64,000 nt of DNA. It comes from a bacterium (lineage in GTDB: Bacteria; T1Sed10-126). The position numbers and the translations under genes were made by a program. The notes under the pieces are model-generated. The model worked only from the letters and a program-made list of their open reading frames with translations. It was not told the origin of the DNA and did not search any database. The stretch's first letter is position 1. Every line of letters begins with the position of its first letter. Shown one piece after another: positions 39,284 to 45,971 of this stretch. The stretch is taken from assembly GCA_003554945.1 (NCBI GenBank), contig PWHN01000050.1:1-64000 (forward strand). Reading direction: 5' to 3'.

Positions 39284-42200
39284 TTATTCAGTGACCATTT
39301 CATCGATATTAAGCTCGCGATCTTTTTCGTCAAAGACACGAATGTCCAGCCCCAGACCCTGCATTTCCTTCAACAGAACGTTAAAGGACTCGGGCACCCC
39401 GGGGACGAAACTCTCTTCGCCTTTGACAATAGACGCGTATGTTCGTGAACGCCCACTCACATCGTCACTTTTTACCGTAAGAAATTCGCGTAACGTATGA
39501 GCAGCTCCATATGCTTCAAGCGCCCAAACTTCCATTTCCCCTAATCGCTGACCGCCAAACTGAGCTTTACCACCAAGCGGTTGCTGCGTAACCAGGGAGT
39601 ATGGTCCAATAGAGCGGGCGTGCACTTTGTCTTCGGCAAGATGTTCAAGTTTCATAATATGCATGTTGCCGATTGTAACTTTTTGATCAAAATAATCGCC
39701 TGTGCGACCGTCGCGAAGGGGAACTTTGCCATCGCGTGGGTAGCCTGCTTCTTCAAGAATATCAGCGATATCTTCGTCAGTTGGGCCTTCAAATACGGGC
39801 GCGATTACCCTGTACCCAAGTTCCTCCAGGGCCAGTGTCAGGTGAGTTTCAAGGACCTGGCCAAGGTTCATCCGACTGGGAACACCGAGTGGATTAAGCA
39901 CTACATCCACCGGCTCACCCGCTTCAGTAAACGGCATGTCTTCTTTGGGGAGAATTTTAGATATTACCCCTTTGTTACCGTGCCGACCGGCTAATTTGTC
40001 ACCAACACCAATTTTACGCTTGTCAGCGACATAAACCTTAACTTTCTTCTCAACTCCCGCTTCTAAATCGTCGTTGTTCTCACGACTGAACTCTTTAACA
40101 TCCACAACTACACCTTTTGTTCCGTGTGGCACCGTTAAAGAGGTGTCCTTAACATCTTTGGCTTTTTCGCCAAAAATAGAATGGAGAAGCTTATACTCAG
40201 GCGAGAGATCTACATGACTCTTTGGCGTTACCTTACCAACCAGCAAATCACCGGGTTCAACATAACTTCCAATTTTTATTATCCCTTCGTCGTCAAGATC
40301 ACGCAGGGCCTGCTTGCTCTGGCTGGGAATATCGCGGGTAATTTCTTCTTTACCCACTTTAGTCTCACGCGCAGCTATTTCAAGTTCTTCGATATGAATC
40401 GAAGTGAATACATCCTCAGTAACCAGCCGTTCAGAGACAAGAATAGCGTCCTCAAAGTTATAACCTTCCCAGGGCATGAAAGCAACTTTAACGTCGCGAC
40501 CAAGGGCAAGTTCGCCCTGGCTTGTTGCCGGGCCGTCTGCCAGAACCGAACCGGCCTCAACCTTATCTCCAATGTCAACTATGGGAGTCTGATTAAAGCA
40601 CATCCCCTGATTCGAACGTTTATATTTCATCAAGGGATAAATATCTATCCGGTTTTCACCGGCCTCAGCAATTATCTCTCCTGTTTGTTTATCAATCTGG
40701 TCTTCCTCTAACTCTTCATCAACTTCAACCCAGATCCGGCGTGAGTCACACTTTACAACCTCACCGTCGCGCTGCGCCACAACAACAGATCCACTGTCAC
40801 GAGCAGCTTTTCCTTCTACTCCAGTAGCAACCATAGATCGCTTCGTATTGACCAACGGAACCGCTTGACGCTGCATGTTTGAACCCATCAGCGCCCGATT
40901 GGCGTCATCATTTTCGAGAAATGGAATGCAGGAGGTAGAGATACTGACAATCTGCCGCGGCGATACGTCAATATAATCAATTTCGCCACGGTGAACAAGT
41001 TCAAACTCATCGGCGCTCCTGGCTCTAATTAGCTCTTTAGTAAACTCACCTTTATCATTAGTTTCAGTTCCAGCAGCGGCTATATTCGCCTGGTCCTCCT
41101 CATCAGCGTCCAGAAAGACTATCTCATCTGTAACCTTACCATCTTTCACAACCCGGTACGGGGTTTCAAGAAAACCCAGATCATTGACGCGGGCAAAAGT
41201 GGCCAGACTAACAATCAATCCAATATTCGGTCCCTCAGGAGTTTCAATAGGACATATGCGGCCATAATGTGTGTGGTGGACGTCACGGACATCAAACCCG
41301 GCTCTTTCCCGGGAAAGACCGCCCGGACCAAGCGCCGACAGACGACGCTTATGAGTGAGCTCGTCAAGCGGGTTTGTCTGATCCATAAACTGGCTCAGTG
41401 AGCCAGTTCCAAAAAACTCCTGCAAATCCGCAGTGAGCGGCTTGATGTTAATCAAGCGGGCCGGGGTTGGCCGCTCATCGTCTTGAACGTGCATATTGAG
41501 TTTGTCTTCAATACTGCGTTCAACGCGGCTTAAACCAGTTTTAGTCTGTTGATAAAGAAGCTCACCTATGGTCCTCACGCGTCGGTTTGAAAGGTGATCA
41601 ATGTCGTCAATCTCACCGTCACCGTCAGCTATCTTTATGAAATACTCAAAAATAGCAAGTATATCCTCGGGGGAAAGGGTTCGTTCCTGGAGGTCTTCCT
41701 CCTCTAATCCTTTATGCCCCAGCTTTTTGTTTATTTTGAAGCGTCCCACCCGTTCAAGATCAATTCGATCTTCATCAAAAAAAGCTCCATAAATATATTC
41801 ACGGGCGTTTTCAACGCTGTATGGGTCATTAGGCCGAAGTAACTTAAACAATCGTTTGAAGGCCTCGTCCGGCTCGGTTGTCGGGTCTTTGGCCAGAGTA
41901 TTTAAGATGACCGGATTGATCTGATCTTCGCGATCTACAATCTTAATCTCATCGTAACCCAGATCCTGCATATCTCGAACAACTTTTTTGTCAATTCGCT
42001 GTCCTGCAGGATGGACAATATTATACTGAGGACCGGTTTCCTCTTCCTCTTCTTCAGCCTCCCCCTCTTCTTCGGCTTCATCTTCCTCGACTGTTTCCGT
42101 CTCCACAACTTCTTCCAGTATAGGTTCGGCAAGATACTCAAAAATTAACGAGTCACCGCCATCAACCGAAACAACTTTTGTGTCGTAAAAATGTTCAACT

Positions 42201-42865
42201 ATGTCTTCGTTCGTCGGCATTATGTAATCCGACTCGGGATCCTCGGGATCTTCAGGGAGAATACGCAGGAAGGTAGTCGATTCAATACGCCGCTCACGGT
42301 CTATACTAATTTTCATGCGGTGGCGCGCATCAATATCAATAGTTACCCAGGTTCCTATGTAAGGAACAATTTTACAGGTAAATCGTTCCTTAGAATCGTC
42401 GTAATCGTAAATTACACCTGGCGAACGAATAAGTTGACTGGTAATTATACGCTCGGTGCCATTAACAACGAACGATCCCGTAGGAGTCATATAAGGGTAA
42501 TCACCAAGAAAGACGTCCTCTTCGATTATCTCGCCGGTATCCTTAAAAATCAGTCGCATACGTGCCGTGATGGGTACGGAGTAAGTAATTCCTCGTTCCT
42601 TACACTCCTGTGGAGTATGCTCGACTTCACCTACTTCATATTGCTCGTATTCAAGGGAGATTTCGTCATTTTCGATTGGGAAGGTGGACTGCAGAGCATC
42701 TTCAAAACCCTGTCTTTTGCGCTCCTCAGGAGCAACGTCCGGCTGTAGAAACCAGTCGTAATGTCGCCGCTGAATACGCAACAGATCGCCTTCCTCATGT
42801 ACTTCCTCCAGAGAACTAAAATCGAGAACGTCCTCACCTTCGCGCTTCCACTGGTCAATTACCAT
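39284..42865 (-). CDS. rpoB: RNA polymerase beta subunit with an acidic insertion
   Basis: 1193 residues. The rifampicin pocket [20 protein letters not shown] then [17 protein letters not shown] is wild type. The catalytic region [14 protein letters not shown] and the C-terminal [14 protein letters not shown] are intact. Residues about 250-277 are an insertion of nearly pure Glu ([17 protein letters not shown]) in the lobe region. It follows rplL by 99 bases, with an imperfect hairpin (GGATATATCC...GGATATTATTCC) in the gap, and precedes rpoC by 25. Confidence 0.97.
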
Positions 42866-42964: not shown

Positions 42965-43360
42965 TTACTTAAGTTCAACCGTGGCGCCGGCGGCCTCAAG
43001 CTGTTCTTTAATTTCTTCGGCGTCCTCGCGAGCGAGACTTTCTTTAACTGCGTTGGGGGCTTCCTCAACGAGCTGTTTAGCCTCTTTTAGGCCGAGGTCC
43101 GTAATAGCACGCACCTCTTTAATAACCTGGATCTTGCTGTCGCCAAAATCAGCGAGAACGACGTCAACCATGCTGTCACCTTCGTCTTCTTCTTCGTCGG
43201 CTCCAGCCGCTGGTACCGCTGCAACAGCACCTGCCATCGCTCCGGCTTCAACATCAAATCGTTCTTCAATTTCTTCCACGAGTTCAGACAGTTCTAAAAC
43301 TGTCATCTCCTCAATAGAATCAATAATTTCATCTTTACTCAACGTAGCCATCAAACTCAC
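42965..43360 (-). CDS. rplL: 50S ribosomal protein L7/L12
   Basis: 131 residues. The N-terminal dimer helix ([19 protein letters not shown]), an Ala-rich hinge and the C-terminal domain with [21 protein letters not shown] are clear. It forms the flexible stalk that recruits translation GTPases and docks on L10. Start overlaps the rplJ stop by 4 bases, the usual coupling. Confidence 0.96.
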
Positions 43361-44154
43361 TCCTCCTGATCTTCTTTTTGATTTTTAACTTGGTTCAACA
43401 GATTAGTCAATTTAACTATCGGATTCTTCAAATATTGTGCAAGCTTCTGTAGCGGTGAATTAAGCCCCATTGCCACACTGGTTAGCAGTTCGTGGCGCGA
43501 AGGCAACTCCGCTATGCGTTCCATCTCTTCAGCATCAAAAAACTCCCGATCAATAATACCCGCCTTCAACTGAGGATTTTCATACTCTTCCTGAAACTCA
43601 ACAATGACTTCAGCCATGCGACTCAAATTGCTATCCCCAAAAACAATCGCTGTATTTCCTTTCAGAAGAGCATCCACCTTATCCAGTAGACCGTTGCCTT
43701 TTTCCGAAAGCTCCAAACTTTCAGCAGCACTGCCACCGGCAAGTTCTTCAGCCGAGTCCAGTATTTTCTCAGCCATGGCGGGCCCAATCCCGGAGATATC
43801 CTGAAGTCCTTCCTGGCCGGTTTCTATTACCTCAGCAACGCTTTCCAGACCGGCTTCTGCAAGTGTTTCGGCCTTGGACGGGCCAACCCCCTCGAGGTCA
43901 GTTAACTCCGGCGTATCTTCCGATTCGTCAGCAGCGGCCTCCACCGGATCCGAATCGCCCACCTGTGCGAAAGCCCGGCGGGCCAGCCGGTTTTTTACAA
44001 CGTGAAAACTGGCATCGTTTTCATAAAGTTCCCGCCTCAGCTTCTCCGTCTCTTCGACCGTCATCCCTCTAAAATTGGTAAAAACCATGTAACTATTATC
44101 TTCAATCAGGGTCTGTAGTTCTTCAACCCATTCAACTTTTCGCGCTTTTACCAT
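43357..44154 (-). CDS. rplJ: 50S ribosomal protein L10 with an inserted double helix-hairpin-helix domain
   Basis: 265 residues against the usual 165-180. Residues 1-62 ([31 protein letters not shown]) and 151-265 ([14 protein letters not shown], the L12-binding helix near [13 protein letters not shown]) are normal L10. Between them, residues about 66-150 form an acidic linker and two helix-hairpin-helix motifs, [19 protein letters not shown] and [19 protein letters not shown]. This resembles the HhH extension of haloarchaeal L32e. In the ribosome the domain would project from the stalk base. It is in frame, with no sign of degradation. Confidence 0.95.
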
Positions 44155-44178
44155 CGTCTTTTTACCTCCCTAACTCGG

Positions 44179-44880
44179 TTACGCCAGTTCCCAGGCCGCG
44201 GCGGGATCAATCTCTATCCCCGGCGACATGGAGGAGGCCAGCGTAATGGAATCTATGTATTGCCCGCGTGAAATTCCGGGCGGTTTTTCTTCAATAACAA
44301 ATTTAAGGACAGCTTTCAGGTTGTCAGCCAGAGCAGAATCATCCATCTCATCAGTTCCCACAGGAGCATGAATTATCCCCTGACTGTCGTTACGAAGCTC
44401 GACCTGCCCTTGCTTTATTTTTTCAACAGCATCAGCCACATCGAAAGTAACGGTACCGGCCTTGTTGTTCGGCATTAGCCCTCGAGGACCCAACACAGGT
44501 CCCAATTGACCAACCTCACCCATCATATCTGGTGTTGCAACAGCCGCGTCAAAATCAAGCCAGCCGTCTGCAACCTTTTCAATCAGTTCTTCGTCACCGA
44601 CAACGTCGGCGCCAGCATCCTCGGCCTCTTTCTGTTTCTCACCGGAAGCAAATATAATCACTTTTGTTTCCTGACCGGTTCCGGCGGGCAAAACAATAGA
44701 CCTACGTATTTGCTGATCTGCCTGAGTCGGGTCAATGTTCAACTTGACGTGACACTCGATGGTTTCAACAAAGTTGGCCGTCGCTGCCTCTTTGACCGCT
44801 TCAATTCCAGCCTCAACACCCAGCCGGTCCGCGGACATTTGCTCTTTCAAATCAACGTATCTTTTGCTTCTAACAGTCAT
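44179..44880 (-). CDS. rplA: 50S ribosomal protein L1
   Basis: 233 residues. [20 protein letters not shown]-like [19 protein letters not shown] and [18 protein letters not shown] are the L1 hallmarks. It forms the mobile stalk at the E site and in many bacteria represses rplKA. Start overlaps rplK by 4 bases. Confidence 0.96.
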
Positions 44881-45350: not shown

Positions 45351-45971
45351 CTATAATTTTTCGGCCTGATCAAAATTTAACTCAACCGGTGTCGAACGAC
45401 CAAACATGTCTACCGACACCTTAATTTTTGCCCGTTCAATGTCAACGTCTTTTACTGTTCCAGTCATCTCTTCCATTGCTCCAGCAATAATACGCACGGT
45501 GGCGCCCGGCTCGAATTTAACCTGCGGCTCAACTCCGCCCATTTCAATCTGCTGCAGCACGTCGCCCATTTCAGTCTGGCGAACTGGAATAGGTTCAAGC
45601 TGTGTTCCCACGAAACCGGTTATACCGCGCGTCTGACGCACAAAATGCCAGTTGTCTTCTGTCATTTTCATTTTAATGAACATGTAGCCGGGGTAAAGCT
45701 GCTTCTCTACTTCCTGCTTCTCACCCTGGCGAATTTCCATAACTTCCTGCGTCGGAACAATCACCCGGTCAATAACATCTGATTTGCCTTCCTCTTCTAC
45801 ACGGTCAAGAAGTCTCTCCCGGGTTTTTTCTTCCTGCCCGGCAAACGTATGCAGGACAAACCAATCCATTTCTTCCTCTTCTTCTGTTGCTTCAGCAACT
45901 TCGGTTTCATCCGCACCGGCATCTTCTTCAACCACGTCTTCGGACGTCACCGGTTCAGTTTCTGCACTCAT
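45351..45971 (-). CDS. nusG: Transcription elongation factor NusG with an acidic N-terminal extension
   Basis: 206 residues. The NGN domain begins at MDWFVLHTFAGQEEKTRERL (residue 35), with YPGYMFIKMKM and TRGITGFVG. The KOW domain is FEPGATVRIIAGAMEEMTG. Residues 1-34 are almost all Glu, Asp, Ala and Val, and are not part of the usual protein. An internal ATG at codon 35 would give the normal length, but the upstream frame is open and has its own plausible start. It couples RNA polymerase to ribosomes or Rho. Confidence 0.95.
   Translation of the reverse strand: MSAETEPVTSEDVVEEDAGADETEVAEATEEEEEMDWFVLHTFAGQEEKTRERLLDRVEEEGKSDVIDRVIVPTQEVMEIRQGEKQEVEKQLYPGYMFIKMKMTEDNWHFVRQTRGITGFVGTQLEPIPVRQTEMGDVLQQIEMGGVEPQVKFEPGATVRIIAGAMEEMTGTVKDVDIERAKIKVSVDMFGRSTPVELNFDQAEKL

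Follow-up and report, generated by a model that had tools for sequence, protein, structure and literature searches.

The window analyzed here, a stretch of 64,000 nucleotides (contig PWHN01000050.1, positions 1 to 64,000, of assembly GCA_003554945.1), contains an operon of the standard order nusG-rplK-rplA-rplJ-rplL-rpoB-rpoC, that is, nusG-L11-L1-L10-L12-rpoB-rpoC. The rplJ gene of this operon codes for a ribosomal protein uL10 in which approximately 88 extra residues split the normal N- and C-terminal parts. The genes and protein segments considered below are the following.

43357..44154, minus strand: rplJ, ribosomal protein uL10 (L10), 265 amino acids, the sole L10 of the genome
43960..44154, minus strand: N-terminal half of the L10 globular domain (residues 1–65), aligned to Pfam Ribosomal_L10 positions 1–68
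43912..43956, minus strand: acidic linker 1 (residues 67–81), poorly conserved, 27% identity between the orthologues
43741..43911, minus strand: (HhH)2 core (residues 82–138), two helix-hairpin-helix (HhH) motifs of 19 residues each, identified by HHH_5, AF2 and the RadA and NusA AR2 folds
43687..43740, minus strand: linker 2 (residues 139–156), rich in Gly, Ala, Ser and Glu, poorly conserved, 22% identity, with indels and different lengths in the orthologues
43360..43686, minus strand: C-terminal part of L10 (residues 157–265), the remaining globular domain and the L12-binding helix, aligned to NF000955 positions 64–168
42965..43360, minus strand: rplL (L7/L12), downstream of rplJ, with the Pfam L12 N- and C-terminal domains
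44179..44880, minus strand: rplA (L1), 24 bases upstream of rplJ

The rplJ open reading frame is uninterrupted from ATG to TGA and is preceded by a GGGAGG Shine-Dalgarno sequence. The likely start of rplL is the ATG at 43351, 5 bases past the rplJ stop; the frame, the stop and the coupling to rplL are intact, as an earlier note on this DNA had stated. The whole product matched the NCBIfam L10 model at 5e-42, and Pfam Ribosomal_L10 aligned to it as two stretches with HHH_5 falling between them, the L10 matches covering both halves and the C-terminal region. The gene lies between rplA and rplL and is present in one copy, as is L10 in the second genome of the phylum described below, and the protein must therefore serve the ribosome. 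The gap between rplA and rplJ is 24–25 bases in both genomes (44155–44178 in the window and L034:1112–1136 in the relative), in the window leaving no space for an L10 leader, and no L10 leader RNA was detected by Rfam around rplJ. The usual autoregulation through the L10 leader seems to be absent in both genomes. In the long open reading frames of the window, acidic residues outnumber basic ones (DE 15.2%, KR 11.7%). The RpoB protein (39284–42865, minus strand) has a very acidic stretch near residues 250–280 that differs in the relative, and NusG (45351–45971) has an acidic tail at its N terminus.

Alignment with bacterial L10 proteins placed the extra residues at about 66–154, within a few residues of the boundaries proposed in the earlier note (~66/67–150). 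The insertion site is the loop between the helix after VVKN and the helix before GNTAIVF. This site is a loop in other L10 proteins too, and both flanks of the insert align to other bacterial L10 proteins without further disturbance. HHH_5 matched residues 83–136 at 1.6e-11 in the context of the whole protein and at 6.4e-17 with the insert alone, with a score of 62.2 bits for the isolated insert as compared to a gathering cut-off of 27; the whole-protein match was also above the cut-off. Residues 75–140 matched the NCBIfam haloarchaeal L32e model at 2.6e-12. The GC content of the insert is 57.6%, as compared to 43.8% in the rest of the gene, and the third-position GC is 0.52 versus 0.42–0.49. 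The raised GC content is mostly an effect of the Ala, Gly and Glu codons, and we did not use it as evidence of recent transfer.

An AF2 model of the insert, built together with its orthologue, gave a pLDDT of 82.6, with values near 90 in the core and a helical pattern that fits (HhH)2. A model of full-length L10 from a two-row alignment had a pLDDT of 32, since too few sequences were available, and was discarded. The insert model matched the N-terminal domains of RadA/Rad51 and the AR2 domain of NusA. VIA-align superimposed it on RadA with a Z-score of 10.4 (1.7 Å over 60 residues) and on E. coli NusA AR2 with a Z-score of 8.4 (1.9 Å over 62 residues), the SuhB-bound copy 6ib8 giving 8.0. Foldseek agreed, with E-values that were modest, as is to be expected of so short a domain. 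Thus, the profile match and the predicted fold bear out the claim that this L10 carries an inserted double HhH, and the model suggests that the insert, with its two hGhG hairpins, folds independently as (HhH)2.

The same insert was found at the same site in CSSed10_354m, a soda-lake MAG (PWOD01000003) that belongs to another genus of the same family and is the sole other genome of the phylum available for comparison; the lineage, which is uncultured, is represented here by these two genomes. The code CSSed10 presumably stands for Cock Soda Lake. The CSSed10 dataset is one of moderate salinity, and Cock Soda Lake is moderately hypersaline (PMC6146748). The L10 of this genome has 278 amino acids and is 49% identical overall to the protein in the window. 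Between these two sequences, on which the comparison rests, identity was 56% for the N-terminal part, about 51–52% for the HhH core and 50.5% for the C-terminal part; the linkers are of different lengths and share only 27% (linker 1) and 22% (linker 2). Both GxG hairpins are invariant, as are the lysines K94 and K130, the only two lysines of the core. The core is as conserved as L10 while the linkers are not, so that the core evolves like L10 itself and is under constraint. By comparison of the two genes, the insertion is shown to be older than the split of the two genera.

We searched for the insert in other bacteria with an L10 profile built from the two proteins. In 386 bacterial genomes from about 260 families, 361 genomes matched the profile, and among the matches listed only the two L10 proteins of the lineage aligned across the insert; any other insert-bearing L10 would have ranked at the top. 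With further samples, the profile screens covered about 1,176 other bacterial genomes in all and identified no further L10 with the full architecture at 1e-22, in agreement with the earlier note, which knew of no other such bacterial L10. Ordinary L10 proteins did not reach this threshold in the later samples, which therefore tested for nothing but the full architecture and could have missed an insert that had diverged strongly. One additional sample of relatives overlapped almost wholly with the earlier genomes. A long L10 frame in one genome (G174; L080:1063–2016, minus strand) was considered as a further HhH insert and rejected: here L10 and L7/L12 run on without an intervening stop in one open frame of 317 amino acids, which reflects either a genuine fusion of the two proteins or a frameshift introduced by sequencing. 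Five records filed as phage (OR846864, OR846596, OR848316, MT837051 and MT838961) contain fragments of ordinary L10 genes, which are probably host DNA. The literature searched contained no paper linking L10 or L32e with the helix-hairpin-helix. We conclude that this is a real, fixed and lineage-specific domain insertion; its components are known, but the genomes and papers searched contain no other example of their combination.

The insert resembles the HhH extension of haloarchaeal L32e, as had been noticed from the sequence; the extension of Haloarcula marismortui eL32 was its best sequence match in the PDB, with 55% identity to the core over 56 residues. The core also shares 48% identity with the NusA HhH domain of the same genome and 45% with that of another bacterium, and haloarchaeal HhH proteins outside the ribosome match equally well, for example a plasmid N-6 methylase at 51%. 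In a tree of 27 domains the two L10 inserts clustered (86/83), while the neighboring branches had no resolution, the alignment of 56 columns being too short to resolve the source. AU tests gave p-values of 0.52 with eL32 as the sister and 0.36 with the NusA of the same genome, rejecting neither. On these comparisons an origin from haloarchaeal eL32, and with it the suggested move from a halophilic archaeon, finds no support but is not rejected either. Part of the similarity to haloarchaea may come from a shared acidic composition. As a separate observation, several ribosomal protein genes of Natronorubrum bangense (S8, L6, L32e and L19e; NZ_CP031306.1, 261992–263962) lie in a row on a replicon of 828 kb that is recorded as a plasmid.

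Several known systems share features with this protein. It has both globular halves, the C-terminal helix, the operon position and the single copy of bacterial uL10 (rplJ; PF00466, NF000955), but it departs from the usual compact globular domain without an insert in having 265–278 rather than about 175 amino acids, the loop that follows the VVKN-helix being occupied by the ~88-residue (HhH)2 insert. The haloarchaeal eL32 (NF009401) likewise combines a ribosomal protein and an acidic (HhH)2, but it is archaeal, carries the domain as an N-terminal extension and has another location in the ribosome. The AR2 domain of NusA, in E. coli and in the same genome, is an acidic (HhH)2 of the same fold, and in E. 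coli a known protein-docking module, whereas it forms the C-terminal tail of a transcription factor. Domain II of archaeal and eukaryotic uL10/P0 is also an extra domain within the uL10 globular domain that faces the translation factors, but it has another fold and a later insertion point: it starts near residue 110, whereas positions 10–74 of the archaeal L10 model align before the rplJ insert. Finally, the alphaproteobacterial L21 (PRK12278), a bacterial ribosomal protein with an HhH-like addition, gave a weak match to the insert (1e-4), but the addition is a C-terminal extension, not an internal insert, in another protein.

The insert core has a net charge of −12 over 55 residues. Calculated per 50 residues, the charges of the two L10 inserts (−10.9 and −5.6) are similar to those of the NusA HhH domains of the same genomes (−8.3 and −2.8) and unlike the neutral or positive charges of the HhH domains in the DNA-binding proteins RuvA (+1.9) and UvrC (+8.2 and +5.9) of these genomes. 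The charge of the L10 insert is also like that of ComEA-type HhH repeats in the same genome. Proteins of 224 and 297–300 amino acids with several such repeats are encoded in both genomes (L107, G000:C47:19000–22500; L108, G001:C106). The dual HhH of NusA AR2 serves as a docking site for SuhB and for the alpha-CTD of RNA polymerase (PMC6614801). The RpoA encoded in the window has an alpha-CTD. The NusA-like acidity of the insert, together with its long and poorly conserved linkers, favors a tethered protein-docking module, and we tentatively suggest, at a little under an even chance, that the (HhH)2 acts as an acidic docking module at the base of the stalk, a location that the earlier note also gave and that is assigned by homology to L10 only. 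Held by flexible linkers, the domain would extend outward from the L7/L12 stalk base and work as NusA AR2 does, and the docked partner, which might be a translation factor, an assembly factor or a transcription component such as the alpha-CTD, would be recruited to or held near the GTPase center. Several points count against docking: the canonical GxG hairpins and the invariant K94 and K130 are as expected for binding to a phosphate backbone, acidity is general in the proteome, acidic HhH pieces also occur in nucleic-acid enzymes of these genomes (LigA and the first motif of PolX), and two sequences only are compared.

Some of these points bear on a role as an rRNA anchor, in which the (HhH)2 would bind the 23S rRNA backbone in or close to the GTPase-associated region, making the stalk base stiffer at high internal salt; the extension of haloarchaeal eL32 might be imagined to act likewise. 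We regard this as possible but doubtful. The preserved GxG motifs and lysines agree with it, the best sequence match is the HhH extension of another ribosomal protein in halophiles, and the acidic proteome fits a high-salt cytoplasm. Yet the strong negative charge sets the domain apart from the RuvA and UvrC HhH, although backbone binding is still compatible with it, the linkers are more in keeping with a tethered domain than with a packed one, and no function of the eL32 extension was found in the literature searched. We therefore favor protein docking over the rRNA anchor, and nucleic-acid binding, which the earlier note had assumed for the module, is not supported as its leading role.

A near-neutral insertion, that is, a mobile domain of little function in a tolerant loop, would explain why the linkers drift and why the site is a loop in other L10 proteins, but it is unlikely given that the core is 51% identical, equal to L10, and that both hairpins are intact across two genera. 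Autogenous control, with the extra domain binding the mRNA of the L10 operon as a substitute for the usual leader interaction, would be consistent with the short rplA-rplJ gap and the Rfam result, but no conserved RNA candidate was identified and many bacteria without an L10 leader have no insert; we regard this reading as improbable too. Although both genomes are drafts in many contigs, we consider an assembly or annotation artefact very improbable, since the frame is open and the insert occurs at the same site in independent assemblies of different genera; the concern about misassembly raised in the earlier note is answered by the same result.

If the favored docking module resembles NusA AR2 in its partners as well, the stalk base could hold RNA polymerase, via the alpha-CTD, or a Nus factor. 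We consider this extension of the docking reading unlikely; if it is true, this lineage would have a device for coupling transcription and translation built into its 50S subunit.

To our knowledge, uL10 is universal and its domain plan is nearly constant across bacteria. The domain insertion known in this protein occurs in archaea and eukaryotes, where domain II makes contact with translation factors. The insertion described here is a second, independent one, in a bacterial phylum; it shows that new modules can be accommodated at the stalk base, and it provides a natural experiment on what can dock beside the GTPase center. It is also a bacterial counterpart to the HhH extension, itself unexplained, of a ribosomal protein of haloarchaea. 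Taken together, the insert appears to be a docking platform on the ribosome that is specific to this lineage.
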